The notes under the pieces were generated by a model that had not been told where the DNA came from, searched no databases, and saw only the letters and a program-made list of their open reading frames with translations. A program made the position numbers and the translations under genes. From NCBI RefSeq assembly GCF_001423185.1, contig NZ_LMOB01000002.1:478329-542328 (forward strand): a DNA stretch of 64,000 bases, written 5' to 3'. The stretch comes from Plantibacter sp. Leaf314 (GTDB lineage Bacteria; Actinomycetota; Actinomycetes; Actinomycetales; Microbacteriaceae). The stretch's first letter is position 1; every line of letters starts with the position of its first letter. Positions 8,793 to 61,288 of the stretch are shown piece after piece.

Positions 8793-9631
8793 GCGCGGGC
8801 CGCCTCGAGGATCGCGAGGCCGGCGTCGGCGTCGGCACCGTCGTGCAGCACCGCCATGAGTGCCGCCGTGATGGCCGCCGGGTGCTCGTGCTGGATGATG
8901 TTGCGGCCGTAGACGATGCCGCTGACCCCGGCGTCGAGCACGGCGACCGTGCGCTCCAGCAGGGTCCGGTCGTCCACCCGGCCGCCACCGCGGACGAGGA
9001 CGGGGACGTCACCCGCGACCTCGACGACGCGCCCGTACTCGGTGATGTCACTGCTCGGATCGGCCTTGACGAGGTCGGCCCCCAGTTCGACCGCCTGACG
9101 CACGAGCGTGACGATCTTCTCGATGTCGCCGTCGACCTGGTAGCCGCCGGCCGTCGTGTTGTCCTGCATGACGAGGGGCTCGATCATGAGCGGCATCCCG
9201 TACCGGGTGGCCTCGCGGCGCAGCGCCATGATGGAGCGGATGTTCGCCTCCCGCACCTCGGGGTGGTCGGGGATCTGCATGAGGTTGACGCACACGGCGA
9301 CGGCGTCGAGCCGGACGGCCTCCTCGATCGCGTGCGGCACGTGGTGGCTGTACAGGAGCGAGTCGAGCGGGTTGCCGTAGACGTTGGCGACATCGGTCCG
9401 GAGGACGAGTGCCGGCTTGTCCTTGCCGGGGACCTGCTGCAGGTGTCGGGCCTGGCCGAGCGTCAGCTGGACGGCGTCGGGACCGGCGGCGACGAGGGTG
9501 CGGACGACCGTGCCCATGTCCTCGATGCCGGTGATGAACGAACGCTCTCCGAAGAACCCGTGGTCGACGGCGACGTCGAGCGCACGACCGGATCGGGCGT
9601 TGAAGAGACGATTGAGGCGGTACAGCGACAT
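8789..9631 (-). CDS. Class I (DhnA/LsrF-type) aldolase
   Basis: A 280-residue TIM-barrel aldolase of the DeoC/FbaB/LsrF family. AVDHGFF at 21-27 and the Schiff-base Lys189 in LGADLVKAD fit the family, as does RGGGR in the phosphate-binding loop. ATG 9631 is supported by AGGAG eight to nine bases upstream; a longer frame to 9706 would run through the regulatory palindrome. It should cleave or form a ketose-phosphate-like substrate. With a PfkB kinase and a Gfo/Idh dehydrogenase alongside, it is likely the C-C-bond-breaking step of an uncharacterised sugar route (inference). Not a canonical glycolytic aldolase context. Confidence 0.85.
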   Translation of the reverse strand: MSLYRLNRLFNARSGRALDVAVDHGFFGERSFITGIEDMGTVVRTLVAAGPDAVQLTLGQARHLQQVPGKDKPALVLRTDVANVYGNPLDSLLYSHHVPHAIEEAVRLDAVAVCVNLMQIPDHPEVREANIRSIMALRREATRYGMPLMIEPLVMQDNTTAGGYQVDGDIEKIVTLVRQAVELGADLVKADPSSDITEYGRVVEVAGDVPVLVRGGGRVDDRTLLERTVAVLDAGVSGIVYGRNIIQHEHPAAITAALMAVLHDGADADAGLAILEAARA

Positions 9632-9700
9632 TGCGGCGGCTCCTGATCGTGACGGGAAGGGTTTCCGGATCCTCCCTCGGTGTGTCACAGTAGTGGCCTG

Positions 9701-9714
9701 AGACAACGTTGTCT
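9701..9714. promoter_or_regulatory. 14-bp perfect palindrome, candidate LacI operator
   Basis: AGACAACGTTGTCT is a perfect palindrome with a central CG, as in LacI-family operators. It lies in the 125-bp divergent gap between the aldolase/oxidoreductase operon (minus) and the PfkB/LacI operon (plus). The LacI protein at 10850-11881 is the likely binder. Confidence 0.7.
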
Positions 9715-9756
9715 AGCGTGCGTCGGCTGAGCGTCGACGCGAAGAACGGAGGGTCC

Positions 9757-10833
9757 ATGGGCGAGATCGTCGTCGCCGGCCACATCTGCGTCGATCTGTC
9801 GCCCCGGCTCGGCGCGAGCGCGCGCATCGACCCCGGCGCGCTCATCGACACCGGCCCGCTCCGCATCTCGCTCGGTGGATGCGTCGCCAACACCGGTCTC
9901 GCGCTCGCCGACCTCGGCAGTGACGTCCGACTGCACGCGACCGTCGGTGACGACGAACTCGGCGCGATCGTCGCCGCCCGTATCGCCGCGCAGCCCCGCC
10001 TCCATCCGGCACTCGAGGTGACCGACCGGGCGGCGACCTCGTACAGCGTCGTCGTCGAACCCGAGGGCCTCGACCGCACGTTCTGGCACCACACGGGCGC
10101 GAACGAGGTCTTCACCGGCGAACACCTCGCCGTCGGTGGCGCGGACCTCGTCCACCTCGGGTATCCGCCGCTGCTGCCCGGCATCGTCGCCGACGGCGGA
10201 GCACCACTCGCCGCCCTCCTGGAGCGGGTCCGCACGCACGGGGCGACCACCTCGATGGACCTCGCCGTCGTCGACCCGAGCAGCACGGTGGGCGCCCTCG
10301 ACTGGGAGGCGATCCTTCGACGCACCCTCCCCCTCACCGACGTCGTGAGCCCGAGCGTCGACGACCTCCGATCCGCCCTCGGCACGACACTGCTCCCGGC
10401 CGACACCGCGCCGTCACCCCGGGCGCAGGCCGCCGCGTTCGCCGAGCTCCTCCTCGCCTGGGGTGCCGGCGTCGTGGCGATCTCGGCCGGCGAGGACGGG
10501 CTCGTGGTGCGCGCCGCCGGCGTCGACCGCCTCCGTCAGGCCGGCCGGATGCTCGCGCCGCTGGCTGCAGCCTGGGCCGACGCCGCGCTCGTCGCACCAC
10601 CGATCCCCGCTCCGGCGTTCGTGTCCACGAACGGCGCCGGAGACGCCTCGACCGCCGGTCTGCTGTTCGCCATGTCACGCGGCGCAGGACCTGCGGCCGC
10701 GGCGGACGTCGCCGGCGCCAGTGCCGCCGCGGTCATCGCCGGTCTCCGGCCGACCGCGGACGAGATCGTCCGGCTACGGCCGAGCGTCCGCCCGCTCCTG
10801 ACGGACGCATCGCCCGACCGACCCGCCGCGTGA
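9757..10833 (+). CDS. PfkB family carbohydrate kinase
   Basis: A 358-residue ribokinase-fold kinase. The N-terminal AGHICVDLSPR and the GGCVANTGLALADLG glycine motif (40-54) fit the family, and the C-terminal TNGAGDAST has GAGD at 293-296, with Asp296 as the catalytic base. ATG 9757 has ACGGAGGG just upstream, so the frame extension to 9709 is rejected. Substrate unknown; it probably phosphorylates the product of the Gfo/Idh enzyme or feeds the class I aldolase encoded divergently. A LacI gene starts 16 bases downstream. Confidence 0.9.
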   Translation: MGEIVVAGHICVDLSPRLGASARIDPGALIDTGPLRISLGGCVANTGLALADLGSDVRLHATVGDDELGAIVAARIAAQPRLHPALEVTDRAATSYSVVVEPEGLDRTFWHHTGANEVFTGEHLAVGGADLVHLGYPPLLPGIVADGGAPLAALLERVRTHGATTSMDLAVVDPSSTVGALDWEAILRRTLPLTDVVSPSVDDLRSALGTTLLPADTAPSPRAQAAAFAELLLAWGAGVVAISAGEDGLVVRAAGVDRLRQAGRMLAPLAAAWADAALVAPPIPAPAFVSTNGAGDASTAGLLFAMSRGAGPAAAADVAGASAAAVIAGLRPTADEIVRLRPSVRPLLTDASPDRPAA

Positions 10834-34480: not shown

Positions 34481-35176
34481 GTGCGCACGCTTCGGGCAGT
34501 CGGGTTCGACCTCGACGGCACCCTGTTCGACCACCGTGGTTCCGCTCGCGACGGGGTGCGCCACTTCCTCCGATCACTGGGCGTCGAACCGTCGTCAGGG
34601 GCTCTCGAGTCCTGGTTCACGGCGGAGGACATCCAGTTCGAACGGTGGCGGGTCGGGGAGATCGGTTTCCAGGAGCAGCGACGACAGCGCCTGCGAGCCG
34701 TGCTGCCAGCATTGGGCGTCACGCTGCCGACGGACGACGCCGGGCTGGATGCGCTGTTCGACGGCTATCTTCAGGCCTATCGCCGGTCGTGGCGGGCGTT
34801 TCCGGACAGCCGAGACCTGATCGACACCCTCCGTGCCAGCGGCTACCGGGTCGGCCTCCTCACGAACGGAACGCAGGCTCAGCAACTCGACAAGCTGCAT
34901 CGAACCGACCTGTTCGGCGGGTTCGACGCGGTGTGCATTTCCGAACACCTCGGCGTGCAGAAACCGGATCCCCAGGCGTTCATCGCCCTCGCCACGCAGT
35001 TGAGCGTCGCGCCGGAAGCGGTCCTGTTCGTCGGCGACCATCAGGCGCACGACGTCGACGGCGCCCGGTCGGCCGGCATGCGCGGGCTACTCGTCGACCG
35101 CTCCGCGACACATACGGCGGGGATCGCGGACGTCGTTCGGGGTGCGCTTCGCGCCGGCGTCGAGCCCGCCCGATAG
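34481..35176 (+). CDS. HAD family hydrolase
   Basis: 231 residues from GTG 34481. Motif I FDLDGT has Asp10/Asp12, motif II is LLTNGT, motif III Lys is in GVQKPDP and motif IV is FVGDHQAHDVDGARSAG. This is subfamily I (haloacid dehalogenase/phosphoglycolate phosphatase-like) with a helical cap. It probably dephosphorylates a small sugar phosphate or nucleotide; exact substrate unknown. The upstream frame extension is not coding-like. Confidence 0.85.
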   Translation: MRTLRAVGFDLDGTLFDHRGSARDGVRHFLRSLGVEPSSGALESWFTAEDIQFERWRVGEIGFQEQRRQRLRAVLPALGVTLPTDDAGLDALFDGYLQAYRRSWRAFPDSRDLIDTLRASGYRVGLLTNGTQAQQLDKLHRTDLFGGFDAVCISEHLGVQKPDPQAFIALATQLSVAPEAVLFVGDHQAHDVDGARSAGMRGLLVDRSATHTAGIADVVRGALRAGVEPAR

Positions 35177-35230
35177 GCCGATGCCGAACGGCTCGGCGAC
35201 CACACGGAGCAGGCCACGTCATCGGCGAGT

Positions 35231-35318
35231 TGCTTAACTTTGCTTAACCGCTTGACCACCCTCTTGAGGTCCCGCTACGGTAACCGCGTAACCGATTAAC
35301 CACTCAACGCAGAGGACG
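35231..35318 (+). promoter_or_regulatory. Fructan operon promoter with TTAACC direct-repeat array
   Basis: A good -35 TTGACC (35252-35257) and -10 TACGGT (35276-35281) are 18 bases apart. Before and after them are phased copies of a TTAACC-like word: TTAACT, TTAACC, TTGACC upstream, and GTAACC, GTAACC, TTAACC, TCAACG downstream with 8-base steps (35280-35308). No LacI-type palindrome is evident, so the binding protein is unclear. Confidence 0.55.
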
Positions 35319-35320
35319 TC

Positions 35321-36814
35321 ATGAACCAACGAGGGTTCCACCAGCCGAACGGCGCATGGGTCGGAGACGTCATCCCGTGGCAAGAGGACGGTGTCTTCCA
35401 CCTGCTCTACCTGCACGAGTCGCGTCGCGTGCCGAAGATCGGCATGCCGTGGCACCGCGTGACCACCCGGAACCTCGTCGACTTCGACGACCTCGGCGAG
35501 GCGCTGGCGTCGGGCGGCCCGTCCGCACCTGACTTCAACATCTACACGGGCAGTGTCGTCCTGGACCCCGACGGCGTCCACCACGTCTTCTACACGGGCC
35601 AGCACCCCGACCACCGCGGTGCCGACGGCCTGGCGCTGCAACTGGTCATGCACGCTGTCAGCACCGATGGCATGCGCACCTGGGAGCGCCGGGAGGCCGA
35701 CACCTTCGGCGCCACCGCCGGATACGAGACCGCCGACTGGCGCGACCCGTTCGTCTTCTGGGACGAGGAGGCCGCCCTCTGGCGGATGCTGATCACCGCC
35801 CGCCACGCCGACGGACCCGAGCGCCGCCGAGGCGTGATCGCCCAGTGCACCTCCACCGACCTCTCCACCTGGGAACCCGTCGAGCCGTTCTGGAACCCGC
35901 GCCGCTACATCGCCCACGAGTGCCCCGAGGTGTTCCAGTGGGGTGACTGGTGGTACCTCGTGTACTCCGAGTTCAGCGAATCGTTCACGACGCGGTACCG
36001 GATGTCCCGCACGCTGCACGGCCCCTGGCTCGTCCCCGAGCACGACACACTCGACGGTCGCGCCTACTACGCGGCGAAATCCGCCGCCCGCGACGGACGT
36101 CGGTTCTTCTTCGGCTGGATCGCCTCCCGCGACGGAGCCCAGGACGCGGGCGCGTGGCAGTGGGCCGGCACCATGTCCGTCCTGGAGGCCGAGCAGCGTA
36201 CCGACGGCACCCTCGCCTTCCATCCTCCGGCCGAATTGCGTGACACCTTCGCACCCACCGGGGAGCCGAACGACACCGTCGTCCCCTCGGGCACGGTGCT
36301 CAGCGCTCCTGACGGCTATGCCGACGCTCTCTCCTCCGCGGACGCACCGGATTCCTTCCGACTCGTCACCCGGTTCGACATCGCCCCCGGCACGACCGAG
36401 TGCGGTGTCCTCCTCCGGGCGAGCGCCGACGGCGACGAGGGCTACGTCCTCCGTCTGGAGCCGAAGCGCGACCGCCTCGTCTTCGACCGCTGGCCGCGCT
36501 CCACCACCGGCACGGAGCAGTGGCAGATCTCGGGCGACGTCCCGTTCGCCGTCGAACTCGAACGCCCCTGCCACCTCGCCCCCGGACGGCACGAGCTCGA
36601 GGTGATCGTCGACGGCGACCTCTGCGTCGCCACCGTCGACGACACGGTCGTCCTCAGCACGCGCCTCTACGACCGGCCGACCGGCCGCGTCGGTGTCTTC
36701 GTCGGCGAAGGGACCGTCACCGTCGAGGACTGCACCCTGCTGGAACGTGGTGATGCCGACCCCGACGACGACCACGCGACATCGCGCCGACTCGTCGCCA
36801 GCACCACGTCCTGA
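35321..36814 (+). CDS. Atypical GH32-clan enzyme (intracellular)
   Basis: 497 residues. The five-bladed propeller plus beta-sandwich layout of GH32 is seen, but the usual WMNDPNG start reads HQPNGAWVGDVIPWQ with Asp16 in the nucleophile place. RDP at 141-143 and the acid/base Glu200 in HECPEVFQWGDWWYLVY complete the triad. There is no signal peptide, so it should act in the cytoplasm on an imported fructo-oligosaccharide or difructose anhydride. It is the first gene of the eight-gene fructan operon, 92 bases before the binding-protein gene. The exact reaction is inferred only. Confidence 0.75.
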   Translation: MNQRGFHQPNGAWVGDVIPWQEDGVFHLLYLHESRRVPKIGMPWHRVTTRNLVDFDDLGEALASGGPSAPDFNIYTGSVVLDPDGVHHVFYTGQHPDHRGADGLALQLVMHAVSTDGMRTWERREADTFGATAGYETADWRDPFVFWDEEAALWRMLITARHADGPERRRGVIAQCTSTDLSTWEPVEPFWNPRRYIAHECPEVFQWGDWWYLVYSEFSESFTTRYRMSRTLHGPWLVPEHDTLDGRAYYAAKSAARDGRRFFFGWIASRDGAQDAGAWQWAGTMSVLEAEQRTDGTLAFHPPAELRDTFAPTGEPNDTVVPSGTVLSAPDGYADALSSADAPDSFRLVTRFDIAPGTTECGVLLRASADGDEGYVLRLEPKRDRLVFDRWPRSTTGTEQWQISGDVPFAVELERPCHLAPGRHELEVIVDGDLCVATVDDTVVLSTRLYDRPTGRVGVFVGEGTVTVEDCTLLERGDADPDDDHATSRRLVASTTS

Positions 36815-36906
36815 TCCCGACACCACGCGCCGCCCGCCTGCTCCACCCGCCTGCACCGCCCCGCACACCCGCACCCACCTGTGATCGATCAACGGAGATT
36901 CCGACC

Positions 36907-38268
36907 ATGCCAACCACCGCACGCACACGCACCATGCGCCCCACCCGCAGCACCGCCTTCGTGGCCCTCGTCGCGGCGTCAGCGCTCGCCCTCTCCGGCT
37001 GCGCCGGCGGATCGAGCGCCACAGACCCGACCGACGTCGACCCGAAGGGCGACATCGTCCCCCGCGAGATCTCCTGGCTGCTCTCCCGCCCGGCCGACGG
37101 CGGCGTGATCACCGCGATGGAGCAGATCGCCGACGAGTATGCGAAGGACCACCCCGGCTTCTCGCTCAACCTCATCACCACGCCCGACCGCCCGTCCTAC
37201 ATCCAGAAGTACGAGACCCTCGCGGCGGCGAACAAGCTCCCCGAGCTGTTCGACACCGACGCGACACCGTTCGCCCAGAAGCTCGCGAAGCAGGGTCGGA
37301 TGGTCGACGTCGACCTGCTCCTCGAGGACCTCGGTCTCGCCGACTCCTACCGCGAGGCGGCGCTCAACTACCAGCGGTTCGACGACGGTTCGCTGTACAT
37401 GGTGCCGTTCGAGTTCCAGCTGGAGTTCTTCTGGTACAACCGCTCCCTGCTCGCGGACGCCGGTGTCACCGTCCCGGCCACGCTCGACGACTTCCCCGCC
37501 ATGTGCAAGGCGCTCCGAGCCAAGGGCGTCACCCCGATCGCGCTCGACGGGCAGGACCAGTGGCCGCTCGAACGTTACATGGCCTACTACCCGTTCCGGA
37601 TGGCGGGTCCCGAGTACATCCAGGACCTGAAGGCCGGGAAGGCCTCGTTCTCCGACCCGGCCGGGAAGGCCGCAGCCGAGTGGCTGTACGACCTCGGGCA
37701 GGCGGGCTGCTTCCAGGAGGGCTTCTCCTCGACCGGCTACGCGGACGCTCAAGCGCTCTTCACCTCGGGCAAGGCGGCGGTCTACAACATCGGCACGTGG
37801 GAGCTGTCGAACCTCGCGACGGATGCGCTCGACCCGGGCGTCCGTGACGCGGTCGGCACCTTCACCCTGCCGACCATCGACGGCGCCGTCACCGCCGACA
37901 ACGAGTACGTGACCCCCTCCGGCATCGGCATGGCGGTGAACGCGAAGACGTACGATCCGCTGGTCCGCGACTTCCTCGCCTTCGCCCTCGAGCGCTACCC
38001 GGAGCTGTACGCGGCGACCGGCGCGCTGTCGCCGACGACCTCCGCGCAGACGACCGTCCCCGCGAACGCGACCGAGCTGTACGCGAGCTCCGTGGCGCAG
38101 GCCGACGGCGTCGGACCGGCGATCGCGATGCCCTGGGACACCCAGCTCGACCCGGCCACGAACACCCGACTCCAGCAGGAACTGACCCTGCTCGTGCAGG
38201 GCGACATCACGCCGGACGAGTTCATCGCGACGATGGACGCCGCCCTCACGGAGAACGTCGATGACTGA
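36907..38268 (+). CDS. CUT1 ABC transporter substrate-binding lipoprotein (fructan operon)
   Basis: 453 residues: signal peptide with lipobox LSGC (Cys32), then family-1 solute-binding fold (REISWLLSRPADGGVITAMEQIADEY, NRSLLADAGVTVPATLDDF, GKAAVYNIGTWE). Ribosome site GGAGA. It should capture the oligosaccharide made by the secreted GH32 enzyme of the same operon and hand it to the two permeases; its gene overlaps the first permease by 8 bases. Confidence 0.9.
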   Translation: MPTTARTRTMRPTRSTAFVALVAASALALSGCAGGSSATDPTDVDPKGDIVPREISWLLSRPADGGVITAMEQIADEYAKDHPGFSLNLITTPDRPSYIQKYETLAAANKLPELFDTDATPFAQKLAKQGRMVDVDLLLEDLGLADSYREAALNYQRFDDGSLYMVPFEFQLEFFWYNRSLLADAGVTVPATLDDFPAMCKALRAKGVTPIALDGQDQWPLERYMAYYPFRMAGPEYIQDLKAGKASFSDPAGKAAAEWLYDLGQAGCFQEGFSSTGYADAQALFTSGKAAVYNIGTWELSNLATDALDPGVRDAVGTFTLPTIDGAVTADNEYVTPSGIGMAVNAKTYDPLVRDFLAFALERYPELYAATGALSPTTSAQTTVPANATELYASSVAQADGVGPAIAMPWDTQLDPATNTRLQQELTLLVQGDITPDEFIATMDAALTENVDD

Positions 38269-39220
38269 ATTCACCCAGACCGCGGTGGGCGCGGCACCGG
38301 CCCGCCCACCGCGGCGGCGGAAGCCGATGTCCACGTCGATGCTGCCCCGCCGGTCGACGCTGTCGGTGCTCGTCTTCCTGGTGCCGCCGCTCGTCCTCTA
38401 CGGCGTCGCCGTGCTCCTGCCGATCGTGCAGTCGCTGTTCCTCAGCCTCTTCTCGTGGGACGGCATCACCGACATGGCGTTCGTCGGACTCGACAACTAC
38501 GTCAAGATGCTCACCCGCGACGACGTCTTCTGGACCTCGTTCGGCAACGCGCTCGGCTACCTCGCCATCTGCCTGGTGCTCCAGCTCGGTGGGGCGCTCC
38601 TCGTCGCCGGGCTGCTCACCGCCCTCCCCCGAGCCCGTGAGCTCGTCAAGACGCTCTACCTCCTGCCGGCCGTCATCTCGACGGTCGCGATCGCCATCCT
38701 GTTCCAGCGGCTGTACGCGCTCGAACCGGTCGGACTCATCAACCAGCTGCTCGCCTGGGTCGGTCTCGGTGACCTCCAGACGGCCTGGCTGTCCAACGTG
38801 CAGACCGTCCTCGCAGCCGTCTCGATCCCGGAGGGCTGGCGGTTCACCGGGCTGTACATGCTCATCATCTACGCCGCCCTCATGGCCGTGCCCCGCGACC
38901 TCGAGGAGGCCGCCCGGCTGGACGGCGCGTCCTGGTGGCAGATCTTCTGGCGGATCCGCTTCCCCTACATCCGGCCGGTGTGGATCACGACGACGGTCAT
39001 GGCGACGACCTTCGCCCTCCGCGGCTTCGACATCCCGTACCTGCTCACGAACGGCGGGCCCGGTCAGTCGTCCGAGCTGCTGACCACGTACATGTACAAG
39101 ACGGCGTTCGTCCACACGGACTACGGCTACGCCAGCGCGATCTCCATGTTCATCGTCGTCGAGTGTCTCGTCGCCGTCGGCCTCATCTTCCTGCTGCTCC
39201 GACGGAAGGACAAGTCATGA
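38261..39220 (+). CDS. CUT1 ABC sugar permease (MalF-type)
   Basis: 319 residues, six membrane segments, with the EAA-loop EEAARLDGASWWQIFWRIRFPYIRP (about 207-231) that docks on the ATPase. It overlaps both neighbours (8 bases with the binding protein; ATGA with the next permease). Forms the sugar channel with the following permease. Confidence 0.9.
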   Translation: MTEFTQTAVGAAPARPPRRRKPMSTSMLPRRSTLSVLVFLVPPLVLYGVAVLLPIVQSLFLSLFSWDGITDMAFVGLDNYVKMLTRDDVFWTSFGNALGYLAICLVLQLGGALLVAGLLTALPRARELVKTLYLLPAVISTVAIAILFQRLYALEPVGLINQLLAWVGLGDLQTAWLSNVQTVLAAVSIPEGWRFTGLYMLIIYAALMAVPRDLEEAARLDGASWWQIFWRIRFPYIRPVWITTTVMATTFALRGFDIPYLLTNGGPGQSSELLTTYMYKTAFVHTDYGYASAISMFIVVECLVAVGLIFLLLRRKDKS

Positions 39221-40131
39221 CCGCCACCCTCCCCGCCCGGCCGACCGAACAGGTCGCGCCCCCGGCTGCGCCGGCACCGAAGCGGAAGCCCCGCCACACC
39301 CCGCGCGTCCGGGTGCAGCGGACGATCCTCACCGTGACCGTCGTCGCGATCGTGCTGGTTCAGGTCTACCCGCTCGTCTGGTTGCTGCTCACGAGCTTCC
39401 GGACAGCGGCGGACTTCGCCGGCGGCAACCCCTTCGCGCTGCCGTCCGAGTGGACGCTCGACAACTACGCCAGAGCGTTCTCCACCGGCAACCTCGGGCT
39501 GAACATCGTCAACAGCCTGATCGTCACCCTCGGGTCGAGCGCCCTGATCGTCATCGCCGGCATGATGGCGGCCTACGCGCTCCAGGTCCTCGGCTTCCGG
39601 TTCAGCGGGCTCGTCCGCGGCCTGTTCCTCCTCGGCATCATCGTGCCCGTGCAGATCGCGCTCGTCCCCCTGTTCATCGACTACTCGCAGGTCGGTCTGC
39701 TCGACACCCACCTGTCGATGATCATCCCGCTGGCGGCGTTCGCCCTGCCGATGGCGGTCTACCTGTTCTCCTCCTTCTACGAGTACATCCCGAGGGAGAT
39801 GTACGAGGCCGCGTCGCTCGACGGCGCGGGCCCGTACCGGATCTTCGGCCAGATCACCTTCCCGCTCTCCGTCAACACGATCATCACGGTCGTGCTCGTC
39901 AACAGCATCTTCATCTGGAACGACTTCATCTTCGCGAACACCTTCGTGCTCTCGGACGGATTGAAGACCATCCCGCTCGGCCTGCAGAACTACATCGGGG
40001 CGATGGGGAACACTGATTGGACGGCGACGTTCGCCGCCGTCTGCGTCACGGTCACACCGCTGCTGCTGGTGTTCCTCGTGTTGAACAAAGCGATGATCAG
40101 CGGCCTCGAGAGCGGAGCGACCAAGGGATGA
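39217..40131 (+). CDS. CUT1 ABC sugar permease (MalG-type)
   Basis: 304 residues, six membrane segments, EAA loop MYEAASLDGAGPYRIFGQITFPLS. It starts at ATG 39217 overlapping the previous stop; the longer open frame is a shadow in the MalF-type gene. Its stop overlaps the LacI start (ATGA, 40128-40131). No ATPase gene is in the operon. Confidence 0.9.
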   Translation: MTATLPARPTEQVAPPAAPAPKRKPRHTPRVRVQRTILTVTVVAIVLVQVYPLVWLLLTSFRTAADFAGGNPFALPSEWTLDNYARAFSTGNLGLNIVNSLIVTLGSSALIVIAGMMAAYALQVLGFRFSGLVRGLFLLGIIVPVQIALVPLFIDYSQVGLLDTHLSMIIPLAAFALPMAVYLFSSFYEYIPREMYEAASLDGAGPYRIFGQITFPLSVNTIITVVLVNSIFIWNDFIFANTFVLSDGLKTIPLGLQNYIGAMGNTDWTATFAAVCVTVTPLLLVFLVLNKAMISGLESGATKG

Positions 40132-41168
40132 GCAGCACCGACCAGCCGAAACCCGGCGCGGACCACCCGAAGAACACCTCGGGCATCACGATGCGCGACG
40201 TCGCGAAGGCCGCCGGTGTCTCCGTCGCGACGGTCTCGCACGTCGTCAACGACAAGCCGGGCTCGCGGATCGGCGAGGACGCCAAGCGCCGGGTGCACGA
40301 GGCGGTGGCCGAGCTCGGCTACCGACCGAACGCCCTCGCGAAGACGCTGTCCCAGGGGCACTCCCGCTTCATCGGCCTCGTCGCCGACGCGATCGCGACG
40401 ACCCCCTTCGCCGGCCAGATCATCCACGGCGCCCAGGACGAGGCGTGGCGACACGGCTACGTCCTGCTCGTCGCCAACACCGACGGCAACACGGCCGCCG
40501 AGGATGAGGCGATCGCGATGATGCTGGAGCACCAGGTCCGCGGGATCCTGTACTCGACCTGGTTCCACCACGAGATCACCGTGCCGGAGGCGCTCCACCA
40601 GACCGACACCGTGCTCGTCGACTGCTTCGCCGGCGGCAGCGGACTCCCGGCCGTCGTCCCCGACGAGGAGCAGGGCGGACGGACCGCGACCGAGGCGCTG
40701 CTCGCGGCCGGCCACCGACGGATCGCGTTCGTCAACACCACGACCCCTTCACCGGCACAGACCGGACGGCTCGCCGGGTACCGCTCGGCACTGCAGGCCG
40801 CGGGGGTCGCGTTGGACGACGCCCTCGTGTTCCCGGCCTCGCCGGAGCAGGAGGGCGGGTACGCGGTGACCGCCGAGGTCGTCGACTCAGGCGCCACCGC
40901 GGTGTTCTGCCACAACGACCGCGTGGCCATGGGACTCTACGACGGGCTGCGGGAACGCGGACTGCGGATCCCCGACGACATGGCGGTCATGGGGTTCGAC
41001 AACCAGGACGTCATCGCCGCCCACCTCAGGCCGCCGCTGTCGACGGTCGCCCTCCCCCACTACGAGCTCGGAGCGGCCGGTGTCCGTCGGCTGCTCGGCC
41101 TCGACGCCACGCCGTCCACCGGGCCGCAGCTCATCGCCTGCCCGGCCGTCCCGCGGCACTCCGTCTGA
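40128..41168 (+). CDS. LacI family transcriptional regulator (fructan operon)
   Basis: 346 residues. After a polar N-terminal arm of about 20 residues comes the HTH ITMRDVAKAAGVSVATVSHVVND, hinge YRPNALAKTLSQG, then a sugar-binding domain. It lies inside the operon it presumably controls, between the importer and the GH32 gene, so repressor is made together with the pathway. Its operator is not obvious. Confidence 0.9.
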   Translation: MSSTDQPKPGADHPKNTSGITMRDVAKAAGVSVATVSHVVNDKPGSRIGEDAKRRVHEAVAELGYRPNALAKTLSQGHSRFIGLVADAIATTPFAGQIIHGAQDEAWRHGYVLLVANTDGNTAAEDEAIAMMLEHQVRGILYSTWFHHEITVPEALHQTDTVLVDCFAGGSGLPAVVPDEEQGGRTATEALLAAGHRRIAFVNTTTPSPAQTGRLAGYRSALQAAGVALDDALVFPASPEQEGGYAVTAEVVDSGATAVFCHNDRVAMGLYDGLRERGLRIPDDMAVMGFDNQDVIAAHLRPPLSTVALPHYELGAAGVRRLLGLDATPSTGPQLIACPAVPRHSV

Positions 41169-41178
41169 GGGCGCGGCC

Positions 41179-42621
41179 ATGCACGACGAACCGAGCGTCC
41201 TCCCGAGGCCTGGCTTCCACCTGACGCCGGAGCGCAACTGGATGAACGACCCGAACGGCTTGGTCTTCCATCGTGGGCGCTGGCACGCGTTCTTCCAGTA
41301 CAACCCGGAGGGCAGCGACTGGGGCAACATGAGCTGGGGTCATGCGACGAGCGTCGACCTGCAGCACTGGGACGAGCTCCCGGTCGCCCTGCGGTTCACC
41401 GCCGAGGAACAGGTGTACTCGGGATCCGTGGTCGCCGCAGGGACCGACGGACGGCTCACGGCGTACTACACGAGCGTGTCCACCGACGGTCGGCAGGCGC
41501 AGTCCCGGGCGACCAGTGACGATGACGGGCTGACCTGGCAGCGCGATCCGGACAACCCGATCCTCGACCGCGGTTCGCAGGCGTTCCGCGACCCGAAGAT
41601 CATCCGATACGAGGACGGCGCGGGGTTCCGCTGGATCATGCTCACCGTGGAAGCCGTCGAGCGGCAGGTCCTCGTGTACTCCTCCACCGACCTCCGCACC
41701 TGGGAGCACGTCAGCACCTTCGGTCCGGTCGGTCCCACCGGCGTCGTGTGGGAGTGCCCAGACCTCATCTCGCTCGCCGTCGACGGTCGTCCCGAGGAGA
41801 CCCGGTGGGTGCTGCTCCTCAGCACCAATCCGGTCGGTGACGCGCAGGATCCGGACGGATCGTCGATGAGCTACCTCGTCGGCGACTTCGACGGCTCCAC
41901 CTTCATCCCTGAGCGGTCCGAGCCACAGCGGCTCGACCACGGCCGGGACTTCTACGCGGCGGTCGGCTTCGACAGCGCTCCAGGCGGTGAAGCGGTCATC
42001 CTCGGTTGGATGGGCAACTGGCGCTACGCCGCCGACCTCCCCGCCTCGCCGTGGCGGGGTGCGATGTCGCTCCCCAGACGGCTCTCGCTGACCACGGTCG
42101 ACGACGAGCCACGACTCGTGCAGGAGCCGCCGGCCTTCGTGACGGAACGGTTGGCGGCGATCGAACCGACGACCATCGCCGTGTCCTCGGACGCCGTCGA
42201 TCTGCCGCTCGACGGCGACGGGGTGGTCGCGCTGCACTGGGATCCGTCGATCACGGGCGAGCTGCGGCTCCGGCTGACGGCCGACACCGACGGCGAGGTC
42301 GTCATCGTCCACGACCCGACGGCGGCGACACTCGCCGTCACCCGGTCGGGCGGCACCATGGACACGGTGCACCCCGACTTCGCCTCGACCAGCATCGTCC
42401 CGCTCGCCGGTGACCGGCCGGCCCGGCTCCTCCTCAGCCTCGACGGCCCACTGCTCGAGCTGTTCGTCGACGGTGGTCTCGCCACCGTCTCCGACCTCGT
42501 CCTCCTCGGGAGCGGGCAGCCCCGACTCACCCTCGCGAGCGAACGCGCCAGCCCCGTCTCGGTCGCCGTCGCCGTCCTCCACCGGGCGTCCGTGATCGAC
42601 CAGGCGCACGCGTTCGCCTGA
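41179..42621 (+). CDS. GH32 beta-fructosidase (intracellular levanase/exo-inulinase type)
   Basis: 480 residues. WMNDPNG at 21-27 with nucleophile Asp24, RDP at 137-139 and acid/base Glu192 in WECPDL. The DFYAAVGFDS and GWMGNWRYA motifs are those of exo-acting levanases/inulinases. There is no signal peptide, so it works on imported oligosaccharides. A C-terminal beta-sandwich module (EVVIVHDPTAATLAV..., FVDGGLATVSD) is present. It starts 10 bases after the LacI stop. Confidence 0.9.
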   Translation: MHDEPSVLPRPGFHLTPERNWMNDPNGLVFHRGRWHAFFQYNPEGSDWGNMSWGHATSVDLQHWDELPVALRFTAEEQVYSGSVVAAGTDGRLTAYYTSVSTDGRQAQSRATSDDDGLTWQRDPDNPILDRGSQAFRDPKIIRYEDGAGFRWIMLTVEAVERQVLVYSSTDLRTWEHVSTFGPVGPTGVVWECPDLISLAVDGRPEETRWVLLLSTNPVGDAQDPDGSSMSYLVGDFDGSTFIPERSEPQRLDHGRDFYAAVGFDSAPGGEAVILGWMGNWRYAADLPASPWRGAMSLPRRLSLTTVDDEPRLVQEPPAFVTERLAAIEPTTIAVSSDAVDLPLDGDGVVALHWDPSITGELRLRLTADTDGEVVIVHDPTAATLAVTRSGGTMDTVHPDFASTSIVPLAGDRPARLLLSLDGPLLELFVDGGLATVSDLVLLGSGQPRLTLASERASPVSVAVAVLHRASVIDQAHAFA

Positions 42622-42702
42622 CCCTCCTCCACCCGCACGATCCAGCACCATCCCGCCACGGGTGCCTTCGGCGCGCCCGTAGCACCGACGAAAGGAACCG
42701 CA

Positions 42703-44289
42703 ATGACGCACGACCTCTCCAGACGGACCATCCTCCAGGGCGCAGGCCTCGGGGCGCTCGCAATGTTCGCGAGCACCGGGGCTCCGCTCACGGCCCAGGC
42801 CGCTCAAGCGACGACCGCCGCGCAGGCACAGGCCTCGCTCCGCTCGGTGTTCCACATGACGCCGCCCTCGGGGTGGCTCTGCGACCCGCAACGACCGGTG
42901 TTCACGAACGGCGCGTACCAGCTGTACTACCTCCACTCCGGCCAGAACAACGGTCCGGGCGGTTGGGATCACGCGACGACGACCGACGGCGTCGCATTCA
43001 CCCACCACCGGACGGTCATGCCCCTCCAACCGGACTTCCCGGTGTGGTCGGGATCCGCCGTCGTGGACACCGCGAACACGGCGGGCTACGGTGCCGGGGC
43101 GGTCATCGCCCTCGCCACGCAGCCCACGGACGGGGTCCGGAAGTACCAGGAGCAGTACCTCTACTGGTCCACCGATGGCGGCTTCACCTTCACGATGCGC
43201 CCGGATCCGGTGATCGTGAACACCGACGGACGGACGGCCCAGACCGCGGCGGAGATCGACAATGCCGAGTGGTTCCGGGATCCGAAGGTGCACTGGGACG
43301 CGGCGAGGAGCGAGTGGGTCTGCGTCATCGGCCGTGCACGCTACGCGGCCTTCTACACCTCGACGAACCTCACGACGTGGCAGTTGCAGCACAACTTCGA
43401 CTATCCGAACCACGACCTCGGCGGCATCGAATGCCCCGACCTGTTCCAGATGCGAGCGGGCGACGGCAGCTGGCACTGGGTGTTGGGCGCCAGTATGGAC
43501 GCCTACTCGATCGGCCTGCCCATGACCTACGCCTACTGGACGGGCACCTGGGACGGGACGCGGTTCACGGCCGACGACCTCACCCCGCAGTGGCTCGACT
43601 GGGGGTGGGACTGGTATGCCGCGGTCACCTGGCCGAAGGCGGAGTCGCCCGAAGACCGCCGGCTGGCGATCGCCTGGATGAACAACTGGAAGTACGCGAA
43701 CCGCGACGTCCCCACCGACGCCTCAGACGGGTACAACGGCCAGAACTCCGTCGTCCGGGAACTGCGACTCGAGGCCCAGTCGGGTGGTCGGTACAGCCTG
43801 CTCAGCTCGCCCGTCGACGCCCTCGCCGGGTATGCGACCGCGACCCTCACCCTCCCCGACCAGACGGTCACCGGGAGCGCCGTCCTGCCCTGGAGCGGCC
43901 GAGCGTACGAGATCGAGCTCGACCTCACGTGGGATGCCGCGAGCAACGTCGGGCTCTCCGTCGGACGCTCGGCGGACGGCTCCCGGCACACCAACATCGG
44001 CAAGGCCGGGGCCGAGCTCTACGTCGATCGGGCGCCGTCCGACCAGGCCGGCTTCTCACTGCAGCCGTACACGCGGGCCGCAGCGCCGATCGACGCGGCT
44101 GCGCGCTCCGTCCACCTGCGGGTCTTCGTCGACACGCAGAGCGTCGAGGTCTTCGTCAACGCCGGTCACACGGTCGTGTCGCAGCAGGTGCACTTCGCCG
44201 AGGGCGACACGGGGATCTCGTTCTACGCCGACGGTGGACCGCTGACCGTCTCGGGGATCACGATCCGCGAGTTCGGAACAGCGATCTAG
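42703..44289 (+). CDS. Secreted GH32 enzyme, probable levan fructotransferase (difructose anhydride IV-forming)
   Basis: 528 residues. N-terminal Tat signal LSRRTILQGAGLGALAMFAS with an Ala-rich cleavage region around 30-40. The active site is not the usual WMNDPNG but GWLCDPQRPVF (Asp61). RDP is at 192-194 and Glu243 lies in GIECPDLFQM. The WLCDPQ, NNGPGGWDHATTTDG and WDWYAAVTWP stretches match what I recall of levan fructotransferase from Arthrobacter ureafaciens and not ordinary levanase. That enzyme turns levan into difructose anhydride IV by intramolecular transfer (EC 4.2.2.16). A related levan-oligosaccharide-releasing enzyme is the alternative. Ribosome site AAAGGAACC. Confidence 0.75.
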   Translation: MTHDLSRRTILQGAGLGALAMFASTGAPLTAQAAQATTAAQAQASLRSVFHMTPPSGWLCDPQRPVFTNGAYQLYYLHSGQNNGPGGWDHATTTDGVAFTHHRTVMPLQPDFPVWSGSAVVDTANTAGYGAGAVIALATQPTDGVRKYQEQYLYWSTDGGFTFTMRPDPVIVNTDGRTAQTAAEIDNAEWFRDPKVHWDAARSEWVCVIGRARYAAFYTSTNLTTWQLQHNFDYPNHDLGGIECPDLFQMRAGDGSWHWVLGASMDAYSIGLPMTYAYWTGTWDGTRFTADDLTPQWLDWGWDWYAAVTWPKAESPEDRRLAIAWMNNWKYANRDVPTDASDGYNGQNSVVRELRLEAQSGGRYSLLSSPVDALAGYATATLTLPDQTVTGSAVLPWSGRAYEIELDLTWDAASNVGLSVGRSADGSRHTNIGKAGAELYVDRAPSDQAGFSLQPYTRAAAPIDAAARSVHLRVFVDTQSVEVFVNAGHTVVSQQVHFAEGDTGISFYADGGPLTVSGITIREFGTAI

Positions 44290-44323
44290 GCGAGCGTGCA
44301 CATCCGTGCGTCAGGATGGACGG

Positions 44324-44911
44324 ATGGATCTCCTAGACCTGACCGAGCACGGACGCTGGACGACGGCCCCTGCGGCGGTGACGAAGGAGCCTGACGGTTC
44401 CCTCCTCGTCACCGCCGACGAGGGCAGCGACGCCTGGCGCCACACCTCGTACGGGTTCGTCCACGACACGGAGCACGCCCTGGTCGCCCCGATGCCACGC
44501 CGCGGGGCCGTCGAGGTGACGTTCGTCCTCGACGGCTCCGAGCAGTTCGATCAGGCAGGGGTGTTCCTGCGGGTGTCCGAGACGGACTGGATCAAGGCCG
44601 GCGTCGAGGTGTCTGACGGGGTCGCCCAGCTCGGCGCGGTCGTCACGCACGGCACCTCCGACTGGTCGGTCGCGCCCGTCCCCGACTGGCTCGGCCGTCC
44701 CGTGACCATCCGAGCGAGTCGGGACGGCGACGCGGTGACGGTGCGCGCCCGGGTGGACGAGGAGGACTGGCGCCTGGTCCGGGTGGCGCACCTCGACCCG
44801 GATGCCGAGGTCGAGGCCGGGCTGTTCTGCGCGGCGCCCACCCGCGCGGGACTCACCGTCCGGTTCACCGCCGTCCGCCTCGGCCCGCCGGACGAGGCGC
44901 TGCACGGCTGA
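44324..44911 (+). CDS. DUF1349 domain protein (concanavalin-like fold)
   Basis: 195 residues from ATG 44324. The DUF1349 jelly-roll pattern is visible: WRHTSYGFVHDTEHALV, VEVTFVLDGSEQFDQAGVFLRVSETDWIKAGVEVSDG, LGAVVTHGTSDWS. Proteins of this family resemble yeast Ree1 and bacterial carbohydrate-binding jelly rolls. Cytoplasmic. It follows the secreted GH32 gene by 34 bases and is likely the last gene of the operon. Role in sugar use not known. Confidence 0.8.
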   Translation: MDLLDLTEHGRWTTAPAAVTKEPDGSLLVTADEGSDAWRHTSYGFVHDTEHALVAPMPRRGAVEVTFVLDGSEQFDQAGVFLRVSETDWIKAGVEVSDGVAQLGAVVTHGTSDWSVAPVPDWLGRPVTIRASRDGDAVTVRARVDEEDWRLVRVAHLDPDAEVEAGLFCAAPTRAGLTVRFTAVRLGPPDEALHG

Positions 44912-44920
44912 CCGCGGTCA

Positions 44921-45901
44921 TCACCGGGGAGTTGCCGCCCCGCGGGTCGCCGTCGCCACGTTGCGCTCGGCGAGCACCGCGAACGCCGCAGCCAGTTCCG
45001 GGGGCTCGACCACCTCGATCTCCGTGTCGAAGCGGTTGAGTGAGGCGGCGAGCGCGACCCACGACCAGGCACCGGCGGTGTATCGGGTGCGGTCATCGCC
45101 TGCCGCCTCGGCCGCGCCGTCACCGACGAAGGGCTCGACGGCGGACAGCGGGAGGTGCAGGAGGACGGTTCCGACGCACGGCCACCGGTCGGCGTGCTCC
45201 GAGCCCTTGAACCGCGCGGCGACGAACGCCCGCACGTCTTCCCCGGGCACCTCGCGCGGGCGGAAGCGCGGTCCGGTCGGCGTCCGCGGCTCGATGAGAT
45301 CGGCACGGAAGATGCGCCAGTCGTCGCGGTCGAGGTCCCAGGCCACGAGGTACCACCGCTCGTCGGAGAGCACCAGGTGATGCGGTTCCACCCGACGCGG
45401 CGGTTCCGGGTCGTCGACCGCCCGACCGAAGCGGAGCACGTGTCGGTCCCGGATGGCGGCTGAGACCGAGAGCAGCACCTCGGAGGAGACCGTGGGCGTC
45501 GGCGCGGCTCCGGTGCGGGCCACGTTCGCGACCTCCAGGGCCTCCAAGCGGTGACGGACCCGCGAGGGCAACACCTGTCGGACGGTGGTCAGGGCACGCA
45601 GCGCCGCCTCGCCGATCCCCGCACCCGCCACGGCGGCGGTCTGGAGCGCCACGGTCAGCGCGACCACCTGGTCGTCGTCGAACAGGAGCGGTGGCAGTTC
45701 GCTCCCGGCGTCCAGGCGATACCCACCGTCCGGACCCATCGTCGCCTCGATCCGGTAGCCCATCTCGCGCAGGCGGTCGACGTCGCGCCTGATCGTGCGG
45801 TGACTGACGCTCAGTCGATCGGCGAGGAGCGCGCCCGGCCAGTCCCGCCGGGCCTGGAGCAGGGAGAGCAGCTGCAGCAGACGCGAGGTCGGTGAGGACA
45901 T
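44921..45901 (-). CDS. WYL-domain HTH transcriptional regulator (YafY-like)
   Basis: 326 residues from ATG 45901. The N-terminal winged HTH is SRLLQLLSLLQARRDWPGALLADRLSVSHRTIRRDVDRLRE. The WYL domain carries RRVEPHHLVLSDERWYLVAWD(L), the sensor motif. Divergent from a VOC gene with an inverted repeat between them; such pairs are common in actinobacteria. The ligand is unknown. Confidence 0.9.
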   Translation of the reverse strand: MSSPTSRLLQLLSLLQARRDWPGALLADRLSVSHRTIRRDVDRLREMGYRIEATMGPDGGYRLDAGSELPPLLFDDDQVVALTVALQTAAVAGAGIGEAALRALTTVRQVLPSRVRHRLEALEVANVARTGAAPTPTVSSEVLLSVSAAIRDRHVLRFGRAVDDPEPPRRVEPHHLVLSDERWYLVAWDLDRDDWRIFRADLIEPRTPTGPRFRPREVPGEDVRAFVAARFKGSEHADRWPCVGTVLLHLPLSAVEPFVGDGAAEAAGDDRTRYTAGAWSWVALAASLNRFDTEIEVVEPPELAAAFAVLAERNVATATRGAATPR

Positions 45902-54576: not shown

Positions 54577-55494
54577 TCAGGCGTTCAGTTCCGCCAGCGT
54601 CGGCGGGTTCGCCCCCGGGCGCGACACGGTGACACTCGCGGCGCGCGCAGCACGCTCGAGGAGTCGACGGAGCTCGTCGTCGGAGATCGCCCCGAGCCGC
54701 TCCTCGGCCTCCGGCCCGGAGACCCCCGCGGTCAGCAGGCCGTCGATGAGCGCACCCATGAACGTGTCGCCGGCACCGACGGTGTCGGCCACCGTCACCC
54801 GCGGCGACGCGATCTCGAACACCGAGCCGGCGCGCACCACGAGCGCTCCGTCGCCACCCCTCGTCACGACGACGAGGCCCGGCCCCGACGCCACCCACTG
54901 CTTCGCCGCGTCGACGAGCGCGAGGTCCGGGTGCAGGAACGCTACGTCCTCGTCGCTCGCCTTCACCACGTGGGCCCGTGCGATGCACGCGAGCGCCGTT
55001 CGCCGAACACGCTCGGCGTCGTCGACGAGCGTGGGACGGATGTTGGGGTCGTAGGTGATGAGCGCCGATGCCCGACGGGCCTCCACCAGCGCGCTCAGGC
55101 GACCGGCACTGGGCTCGAGGACGGACGCGATCGAGCCGGTGTGCACGACGGACGCCTCCGGAGCATCCGTGGCGTCGAGGTCGAGGGAGAGGTCGAACTC
55201 GTAGGTGGCCGCACCGTCCGCGTCGAGCGTCGCCTGCGCCGTGGAGGTCCGACCGGTGGGCGCTGACACCAGCGAGACCCCGGACGCGTCGAGCCAGGCC
55301 CGGATCGCCGCGCCACGCTCGTCGTCGCCGACGTGGGTCACGAGCGCCGGGACCCGGCCGAGTCGGCCGAGGGTGATGCCGACGTTCGCCGGGCTGCCGC
55401 CGGGACTCTCGGCCTGCGTCCCGTCGAGTCGACGGACGATGTCGATGAGCGTCTCGCCGGCGATGAGCACGTCGGTCGTCGGGGTCGTGTGCAT
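54577..55494 (-). CDS. PfkB family carbohydrate kinase, probable fructokinase
   Basis: 305 residues: VLIAGETLIDIVRR, PGGSPANVGITLGRLG (31-46, sugar-binding glycines), YDPNIRP and the catalytic DTVGAGDTF with GAGD at 240-243. PGGSPANVA-type kinases in fructan loci are usually fructokinases. It lies 25 bases after the LacI gene and opposite the importer/GH32 operon, so it would phosphorylate the fructose released there. Confidence 0.85.
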   Translation of the reverse strand: MHTTPTTDVLIAGETLIDIVRRLDGTQAESPGGSPANVGITLGRLGRVPALVTHVGDDERGAAIRAWLDASGVSLVSAPTGRTSTAQATLDADGAATYEFDLSLDLDATDAPEASVVHTGSIASVLEPSAGRLSALVEARRASALITYDPNIRPTLVDDAERVRRTALACIARAHVVKASDEDVAFLHPDLALVDAAKQWVASGPGLVVVTRGGDGALVVRAGSVFEIASPRVTVADTVGAGDTFMGALIDGLLTAGVSGPEAEERLGAISDDELRRLLERAARAASVTVSRPGANPPTLAELNA

Positions 55495-59897: not shown

Positions 59898-59965
59898 CCG
59901 ACGTCGACACCCGCACCGCGATCCGAACCACCTCGACCAGACCGATCTCCGACCGAAAGGGAGCC

Positions 59966-61288
59966 ATGACCGGCCTCCAGTCCCCGCAGCACGCCGACCG
60001 CAGCTTCCCGCGGTTGCACCCGAGGCCCGAGGCCGGCTGGGTGAACGACCCCAACGGCATCATGTTCGTCGACGGACGCTGGCACGTGTTCTTCCAGTAC
60101 AACCCGGGGTCCGCCCGGCACGAGGACATCCACTGGGGCCACACGAGCTCCGCGGACCTGCTGGCGTGGGAGGAGCACCCGGTGGCGCTGCACCCTCGCC
60201 CGGGCACCACGGACGGCTTCGGGTGCTGGAGCGGCGTCGGTGTCGTCGACGGCGGTCTGCCGGCGGTCGTCTACTCCGCCGCCCGCGACCGACACGGGCG
60301 CTCCGAGGTGGTCGTCGTGCACGGCTCGGCCGACGCCCGCGACTGGAGCGGCGAGCGCCTCGTCGCCGCCGCCCTCCCCTCGGACGAGCGGGTGACGATG
60401 GTGCGGGACCCGTTCCTCTTCGAGCTGGGCGGGCGCCGCTGGGCGATCCAGGGTGCCGGCCGCTCCGACGTCGGCGGCGCACTGTTGCTCTACGGTGCGG
60501 ACGACCTCGACGCCTGGACGGAGGAGGGGTACCTGCTCGACGCCGAGGCGCCGGTGGTCTCGGACCTCGCGCCGTGCGAGGGCTGGGAGTGCCCGCAGCT
60601 GGTCCAGGTGGGCGAGGACTGGGTGCTGATCATGTCGCTGTGGTTGGACGGGCAGCCGCACCGCGGGGTCGCGTGGGCGCTCGGCTCGCTGACCATCGAC
60701 GAGGGCACCGGCCGCCCCGTGTTCAGCGCGCGCCGCACCGGCCTCATCGACGAGGGCTCGAGCTTCTACGCGCCGCAGGCCGTGCAGTCCGACGGCGCCG
60801 ACGGGCAGCCGGCGCGCGTGCTCCTCTGGGGGTGGGCGCAGGAGCTCGCGCCGGCCGGCGTCCGCGGTCGGACCCAGGCGGAGGCCGACGAGCACGGGTG
60901 GTCCGGCATGCTGACCTTCCCGCGCGAACTCATCGTCCGAGACGACCAGGTCGAACTCGTCCCGGCGAGAGAGCTGACCGCGCTCCGCGCCGAGCCGGTC
61001 GACGTGACCGCGCTCCCCGACCAGGCCGAGGTGGTGCTGACCGGGGCGGGGACGGTGGAACTCGTCCTCGGCGGCTCGGCCGAGCAGACCGTCTGGCAGG
61101 GCGAGCTGTCCGCCGGCGACGAGGTGCGGGTCCTCATCGACACGTCCATCGTCGAGATCCACCGGAGCGGCCACCCGTCGCTGACCTTCCGTGCCTACCC
61201 CTCGGACGGCGAGCACTACGCCCTGCGGCATGACGCGGGTGTGACGGCGGAGGCGTGGTCGTTGCGGGTCCCGACGCCGGCCGCCTGA
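59966..61288 (+). CDS. GH32 beta-fructofuranosidase (sucrose/fructo-oligosaccharide hydrolase)
   Basis: 440 residues. WVNDPNG at 25-31 with nucleophile Asp28, VRDPFLF with RDP at 147-149, and acid/base Glu208 in WECPQL. It has the GH32 propeller and a short C-terminal sandwich. No signal peptide, so it cleaves imported sucrose-like or fructo-oligosaccharide substrate to fructose for the PfkB kinase. Ribosome site AAAGGGAG; GTG 59894 overlapping the permease stop is a less likely start. Confidence 0.9.
   Translation: MTGLQSPQHADRSFPRLHPRPEAGWVNDPNGIMFVDGRWHVFFQYNPGSARHEDIHWGHTSSADLLAWEEHPVALHPRPGTTDGFGCWSGVGVVDGGLPAVVYSAARDRHGRSEVVVVHGSADARDWSGERLVAAALPSDERVTMVRDPFLFELGGRRWAIQGAGRSDVGGALLLYGADDLDAWTEEGYLLDAEAPVVSDLAPCEGWECPQLVQVGEDWVLIMSLWLDGQPHRGVAWALGSLTIDEGTGRPVFSARRTGLIDEGSSFYAPQAVQSDGADGQPARVLLWGWAQELAPAGVRGRTQAEADEHGWSGMLTFPRELIVRDDQVELVPARELTALRAEPVDVTALPDQAEVVLTGAGTVELVLGGSAEQTVWQGELSAGDEVRVLIDTSIVEIHRSGHPSLTFRAYPSDGEHYALRHDAGVTAEAWSLRVPTPAA

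Follow-up and report, generated by a model that had tools for sequence, protein, structure and literature searches.

Studies and applications of levan fructotransferase (LFTase) have treated the enzyme as a producer of difructose anhydride IV (DFA IV), and the locus described here raises the question of what a bacterium encoding such an enzyme does with the product. The locus consists of eight genes, P0001 to P0008, on the + strand at positions 35321-44911 of a 64,000-nucleotide window from Plantibacter sp. Leaf314 (contig NZ_LMOB01000002.1, positions 478,329 to 542,328; the source genome is 3.96 Mb in 3 contigs). An initial annotation of the window proposed that levan is turned outside the cell into DFA IV by a "levan-fructotransferase-like" enzyme and that the anhydride is imported and then opened and hydrolysed by two cytoplasmic GH32 enzymes. 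All eight of its open reading frames (ORFs) were present and co-oriented, and its family calls were confirmed by Pfam (three GH32 proteins, an SBP_bac_1 solute-binding protein [SBP] of the CUT1 type, two BPD_transp_1 permeases, a LacI regulator and a DUF1349 protein). Gene content, orthology, co-conservation and an operator-like site indicate that this is probably a LacI-controlled operon for both producing and consuming DFA IV, in which P0007 would make the anhydride, the importer would take it up and P0001 would open its ring.

The secreted enzyme and its constant partners

P0007 carries the catalytic and C-terminal domains of GH32 (PF00251 and PF08244). Alignment with the crystallised LFTase of Paenarthrobacter (Arthrobacter) ureafaciens (GH32, EC 4.2.2.16, PDB 4FFF-4FFI) detected identity at 392 of 481 aligned residues of 4FFF (81.5%) and at 84.4% of the first 315; the score against LFTase was 933 bits and that against the next solved relative, the endo-levanase LevB1, was 355. 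The motifs WLCDPQ, RDPK and ECPD were all present, and the nucleophile that is changed in 4FFH/4FFI (D54N; WLC[D>N]PQ) was intact. A twin-arginine motif, SRRTILQ, precedes a hydrophobic stretch as read by eye, giving a predicted export signal of the twin-arginine translocation (Tat) type. Judged by its sequence, P0007 is the ortholog of this secreted LFTase, with the same nucleophile motif, so that the wording of the initial annotation named the right family but was too weak; production of DFA IV by P0007 in this organism would be expected from the orthology.

A genome scan yielded 84 LFTase matches, of which the best 80 gave 77 distinct loci, 72 with an LFTase of at least 60% identity (best segment) and 5 below this level. 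WLCDPQR was kept in all 72 relatives, save for WLCDGQR in two Actinomyces, and 60 of the 72 WLCD-bearing relatives matched a crude RRx(hydrophobic)2 pattern. Four relatives of ~38% identity from Halobacillus and Paenibacillus carried WKNDPQR; the two of these that were compared were LevB1-type endo-levanases (743 and 754 bits versus 332 for LFTase). The residue before the nucleophile (N in P0006, C in LFTase, G in P0001) was considered as an exo/endo marker and was dropped because LevB1-like relatives also have N.

Described LFTase sources are A. ureafaciens, A. nicotinovorans, A. oxydans and Microbacterium (PMC6828762). Named strains other than those assayed carried the cluster; they belong to Microbacterium, P. 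nicotinovorans (L042) and P. oxydans (L046, truncated at a contig end). A Clavibacter secretome table includes an LFTase (PMC7839047), and a Clavibacter locus (L069) carries the whole cluster. The levB gene of C. cellulans MP1 was published as a levanbiose-producing levanase (PMC8325422). By gene order it matches a 79% LFTase ortholog with WLCDPQR (L023 8453-15275), two genes on from which lies a 616-residue GH68 protein, equal in length to the published levansucrase. The published product assignment is doubtful, and levB looks like an LFTase gene.

The A. ureafaciens enzyme is known in isolation, and no description was found of import or hydrolysis genes travelling with it. The neighbourhoods of the 72 loci, 59 of them fully flanked and 13 short-flanked, were scored for partner genes by bit-score thresholds; neighbour lists for the relatives came from a simple gene caller that may err (antisense shadow ORFs appeared in GC-rich parts of the window) and that was not applied to the window genes. 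All 59 fully flanked loci, spread over many genera, had P0001 and the binding protein together with the two permeases and LacI, an arrangement with LFTase far beyond chance. At least one partner was missing from 6 of the 13 short-flanked loci. The five loci with lower LFTase relatives (the four from Halobacillus and Paenibacillus and one from Actinomyces oris) had none of the partners at the thresholds used. At 28 fully flanked Arthrobacter-type loci, LFTase was divergent from P0001 and no further GH32 was found in the flanks.

Whole genomes were examined in two overlapping samples, one of the order (297 genomes) and one of the family (299 genomes; matches with E up to 1e-100). In the order sample, LFTase of at least 66% was detected in 6 genomes, all 6 of which had P0001 at ~50% or more (Fisher p 5.5e-9, uncorrected for kinship), and a P0002 ortholog lay beside the P0001 ortholog at 15 of 15 loci. 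In the family sample P0001 accompanied LFTase in 11 of 11 genomes at 70% or more and in 14 of 15 at 50% or more (the exception was G406), while two LFTase relatives at 45% (G318 and G069) lacked it. Over both samples an LFTase of at least 66-70% was never seen without P0001 (17 of 17 genome rows, with the source genome counted in both).

The pair was also found with another importer. Among 72,556 plasmid records a single one had an LFTase of at least 60%, and the same record had the sole P0001 of at least 50% among the best 15 of 109 rows. On this plasmid, pTCL of Curtobacterium sp. TC1, an LFTase at 70% and a P0001 ortholog at 50% are accompanied by LacI, an SBP and two permeases, and also by another GH32, a PfkB kinase and TatA/TatC. 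The permeases and LacI were only 28-35% like those of the window, the other GH32 was only 29% like P0006, and the SBP did not match P0002 at E 1e-5; LFTase and P0001 therefore stay linked across importers. The cassette recurred in G326 and, truncated at a contig end, in G397, and G351 has the pTCL-type importer and P0001 without LFTase. Separately, the tatA and tatC genes of this cassette (L136; NZ_CP081962.1 150876-163762) lie between the LFTase and PfkB genes, apparently a private Tat exporter adjoining its Tat substrate, and the same genes stand beside LFTase in G326 and G397. A possible third cassette type combines LFTase relatives of 45-58% with another SBP, LacI and a short single-domain GH32, ~304 aa where intact (A. 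oris L075, L122, L123, L142). Three LFTase relatives of 50-56% (G331, G337, G404) do carry P0001.

The cytoplasmic protein P0001 and the proposed route

BT1760 was the nearest solved structure to P0001 both by sequence and by fold (predicted structure), with full-length homology that includes the catalytic triad at ~25% identity. D16, R141-D142 and E200-C201 were invariant in 41 orthologs, while Gln239 and Arg244 of BT1760 appear from the sequence to have no counterparts. Unlike BT1760, P0001 is predicted to be cytosolic: it begins with the catalytic domain and no signal peptide was visible by eye, for which reason it was not classed as an endo-levanase, a class of surface-exposed or secreted enzymes. 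It also differs by an extra conserved loop near 390-415. The clade-specific loop DRWPRxxTGxxQW was present in 77 of 78 clade rows and in none of 7 paralogs, and residues ~389-415 form a strongly conserved clade-specific loop that is disordered in the monomer structure model.

The two fructoses of DFA IV are each attached to the O6 of the other, and the mechanism of GH32 enzymes is a retaining one. Attack on C2 to open DFA IV would therefore need space at -2 for the O6 substituent of the fructose in subsite -1; an endo-type pocket such as that of BT1760 would offer this space and so fit P0001 as the opener. The proposed route starts outside the cell, where Tat-exported LFTase, by orthology, would strip difructosyl units from levan and close them into DFA IV. 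The lipoprotein SBP and the two permeases would import the anhydride with the help of an ATPase encoded outside the operon. In the cytosol Asp16 of P0001 would attack C2 of one fructose while Glu200 would protonate O6 of the other, giving levanbiose, which may then be split to fructose by an exo-type GH32. In this genome that enzyme would be P0006, and in others a different GH32 of the genome. Genomes with P0001 and the importer but without LFTase would be scavengers of the DFA IV of others.

The importer has a lipoprotein SBP (P0002, with SBP_bac_1 and a lipobox-like LALSGC) and two permeases by Pfam, as in CUT1-type systems; none of the eight genes encodes an ATPase by Pfam, and no genome search was aimed at the importer ATPase. 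The nearest solved SBPs to P0002 are, by name, xylo- or chitin-oligosaccharide binders or unassigned. P0006 has no signal peptide visible by eye, and its closest solved relative is the exo-inulinase InuAMN8 (PDB 8I12; 376 bits). At only 23 of the 59 fully flanked LFTase loci did a second GH32 reach 200 bits against P0006; a few of these proteins were 37-44% relatives rather than orthologs, and P0006 was ruled out as an obligatory partner. Of the two cytoplasmic GH32 proteins that the initial annotation had placed in the route, P0001 thus stood as the constant member and the second as an optional one. A whole-genome search, covering 36 of 40 loci with P0001 but no P0006-scoring GH32 (L035, L040, L073 and L077 were left out), found at least 3 GH32 matches in each of the 36 genomes, any of which could thus encode a separate enzyme for cleaving levanbiose.

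Gene clusters for the use of difructose anhydrides have been described before, and by analogy the system would be a variant of their logic, with an importer and two intracellular GH32 proteins, one of which would open the anhydride. The difructose anhydride III (DFA III) clusters of Blautia and Arthrobacter combine a GH91 DFA-IIIase with GH32 and an ABC transporter (PMC11538131). They share import of a cyclic difructose, intracellular ring opening and a GH32 finish with the route proposed here, but the opener is a GH91 beta-helix enzyme acting on an inulin-derived anhydride, in contrast to the proposed GH32 opener and a levan-derived sugar. The difructose anhydride I (DFA I) operon of Bifidobacterium dentium has GH172, GH32, an ABC transporter and LacI (PMC8605356); like the Plantibacter operon as proposed here, it unites LacI, an ABC importer, an intracellular opener and GH32. 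GH172 of B. dentium acts on alpha-fructofuranosyl bonds, whereas the bonds of DFA IV are only beta. GH172 (PF11175) gave no match in the source genome, but the control genomes gave none either. On Paenarthrobacter plasmid pCZY (L135 1724-11422), the operon of a 35% P0001-like paralog (SBP, two permeases, GH32) starts ~4 kb from a GH172 gene that is accompanied by permeases and a kinase, which hints at a DFA I module. No account of a DFA IV hydrolase or importer was found in searches of the open-licence PMC literature. The cluster provides concrete candidate genes for both, conserved in dozens of actinobacterial species, in a putative pathway that has been overlooked so far and is directly testable.

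Weighing the explanations

Several observations weigh against DFA IV as the substrate of P0001. P0001 occurred without LFTase in 9 further genomes of the order sample (9 of 15 P0001 genomes) and in 15 of the 29 P0001 genomes of the family sample; because LFTase is absent from so many P0001 genomes, the substrate may be levanbiose or levan oligosaccharides generally. Some LFTase relatives of 45-58% (A. oris L075, G165, G255, G406) lack P0001 and have another binding protein and the short GH32. We know of no report of BT1760 opening DFA IV. BT1760, a beta-2,6-specific endo-levanase of Bacteroides thetaiotaomicron (PDB 6R3R/6R3U), cleaves linear levan oligosaccharides, with levantetraose occupying its pocket at -3 to +1, but does not cleave levanbiose itself (PMC6560043). 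Because of this last property, the final step of the route plausibly falls to an exo-type GH32 such as P0006. The many P0001 genomes without LFTase, and the action of BT1760 as the nearest characterised relative on linear levan oligosaccharides, favour a system for importing levanbiose and levan oligosaccharides. In it P0001 would serve as an intracellular levanase for the linear beta-2,6 oligosaccharides that LFTase leaves behind or that the levanases of others release, and DFA IV would be a side product or not imported. We consider this doubtful. LFTase preparations give ~73-75% DFA IV from levan (PMC6245366), so that most of the LFTase product would be wasted; the four LevB1-like clusters of Halobacillus and Paenibacillus have neither P0001 nor this importer; and in the two genome samples LFTases of at least 66-70% were never without P0001.

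The anhydride might instead be imported and opened by a P0006-type or other exo-GH32, with P0001 acting in a second step or in trimming. The window does hold both intracellular GH32 proteins, and the 36 genomes searched that lack a P0006-scoring cluster GH32 had others, from which an exo-type enzyme could be supplied, but the constancy of P0001 set against the 23 of 59 loci for P0006, the retention of P0001 in the Curtobacterium cassette beside a GH32 so unlike P0006, and the acceptance of one terminal fructose by exo-type GH32 pockets (PMC6560043) make this improbable. An ordinary operon for uptake of sucrose or inulin-type fructans, with the LFTase-like enzyme merely a levanase, would agree with the Pfam and NCBIfam families, all common GH32, CUT1 and LacI types, and with the published annotation of levB. 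It is very hard to reconcile with the identity of P0007 to an LFTase crystallised with DFA IV (title of 4FFG) and with the near-universal WLCDPQR of the close relatives versus WKNDPQR in the four distant ones, and we give it scarcely any credence.

In the preferred explanation, the DFA IV producer-consumer operon, the initial claims of LFTase identity, an import system, cytoplasmic GH32 proteins and co-regulation were all supported. The further claim that importer and GH32 proteins serve the LFTase product was strengthened by the conservation, by the LFTase-P0001 pair with a different importer and by the shared operator, and calls for refinement in that only P0001 is constant and that it often occurs without LFTase. 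The P0001 family probably represents a new specificity. We lean, somewhat more cautiously, towards a wider proposal: that P0001 founds a GH32 specificity of cytosolic DFA IV-opening hydrolases, reversing the ring closure of LFTase by the same covalent difructosyl-enzyme chemistry; that at least two, perhaps three, actinobacterial cassettes were separately assembled on the scheme of secreted LFTase, importer and intracellular GH32; and that LFTase-less P0001 clusters are scavengers of a privatised public good. The strategy suggested is conversion of levan to a cyclic sugar that the exo-fructosidases of competitors should not handle, followed by private import, and a practical hint is that hosts for DFA IV production should be without P0001-type genes.

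Strict one-to-one coupling of P0001 and LFTase was rejected, the LFTase-less clusters being scattered over the P0001 tree. In a quick tree (built from the window, 45 of the 78 clade rows and 6 of the 7 outgroup rows, and labelled by whether LFTase was found in the fetched stretch) there were 8 changes of LFTase label, at least 7 of them forced by starred branches, with loss and gain not separable. Both permeases and LacI had homologs nearby at the nine LFTase-less order-sample loci. At one of these, L118, P0001 has beside it the remnant of an LFTase (6080-6418), an ORF of 112 residues with 79% identity where it matches, and the first permease (9593-10377) is split over two ORFs; both genes are intact in relatives. 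Because of the split permease, L118 may represent a cluster in decay and not a functional scavenger; its state reflects either decay or assembly errors.

Regulation and features of the locus

An operator-like pattern, TGNTYAANCGNTTRANCA, was obtained by inspection of upstream regions. At up to one mismatch it matched the window once and was absent from 100 shuffles. Across 78 P0001 loci (1.59 Mb, including near-duplicates such as L062/L125), 177 of 178 such sites lay no more than 250 bp 5' of P0001 or LFTase, and 77 of the 78 loci had a site there. The sole outlying site, in L035, is just upstream of the true start of an interrupted P0001 frame. The enrichment is partly built in because the pattern was drawn from these same regions, but the emptiness of the remaining sequence is not. 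Elsewhere in the source genome there was one single-mismatch site, the level of the reversed-pattern control; perfect sites numbered one. P0005 has the helix-turn-helix (HTH) and effector domains of LacI regulators, with a palindromic candidate operator near the operon (Table 1), and the conserved site suggests that it would repress at the single operator upstream of P0001.

Table 1. Features of the fructan locus (window coordinates)
Feature	Position	Strand	Remarks
LacI-type palindromic operator TGCTTAACCGCTTGACCA	35241..35258	+	~63 bp 5' of P0001 start codon; candidate
P0001, cytoplasmic GH32 akin to endo-levanase BT1760; proposed DFA IV ring-opening hydrolase	35321..36814	+	GH32N/GH32C
P0002, lipoprotein SBP of CUT1-type ABC importer	36907..38268	+	SBP_bac_1; lipobox-like LALSGC
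P0003, importer permease 1	38261..39220	+	BPD_transp_1; 8 bp overlap with P0002
P0004, importer permease 2	39217..40131	+	BPD_transp_1; 4 bp overlap with P0003
P0005, LacI-family regulator	40128..41168	+	LacI HTH and Peripla_BP_3; 4 bp overlap with P0004
P0006, cytoplasmic exo-type GH32 (WMNDPNG); proposed levanbiose/fructoside hydrolase, optional member	41179..42621	+	GH32; nearest structure 8i12
P0007, secreted LFTase, Tat-type SRRTILQ, WLCDPQR	42703..44289	+	81.5% identity to PDB 4FFF
P0008, DUF1349 protein, Plantibacter-only neighbour, non-core	44324..44911	+	PF07081; alternative GTG start 44306

Four stop/start overlaps had been claimed; only three exist (38261/38268, 39217/39220 and 40128/40131), since the end of P0005 at 41168 and the ATG of P0006 at 41179, and likewise the end of LFTase at 44289 and the P0008 start (GTG 44306 or ATG 44324), are separated by gaps. 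DUF1349 had also been counted as an operon member. It was rejected as a pathway part and lies outside the conserved system, being present at 4 of the 77 LFTase-relative loci, all from Plantibacter. The closest named relatives at the locus were Plantibacter (L006-L009), with LFTase identities of 93-97%. No sigma-70 promoters or terminators above chance level were detected in 34900-45100. Synthesis of levan by the organism itself was rejected, as the source genome gave no GH68 match while the positive control matched in B. subtilis.

Downstream in the window, a PfkB-family kinase is encoded at 54577-55494 (-), with fructokinase as its best NCBIfam match (130 bits versus a cut-off of 450). The LFTase-less cluster L113 has a PfkB gene too, as does the Curtobacterium cassette, and in L141 and L142 similar genes stand beside LFTase. 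A further GH32 protein, with a WVNDPNG motif and no obvious signal peptide, is encoded at 59960-61288 (+), and the five GH32 matches of the source genome all lie within ~54 kb of contig 2.

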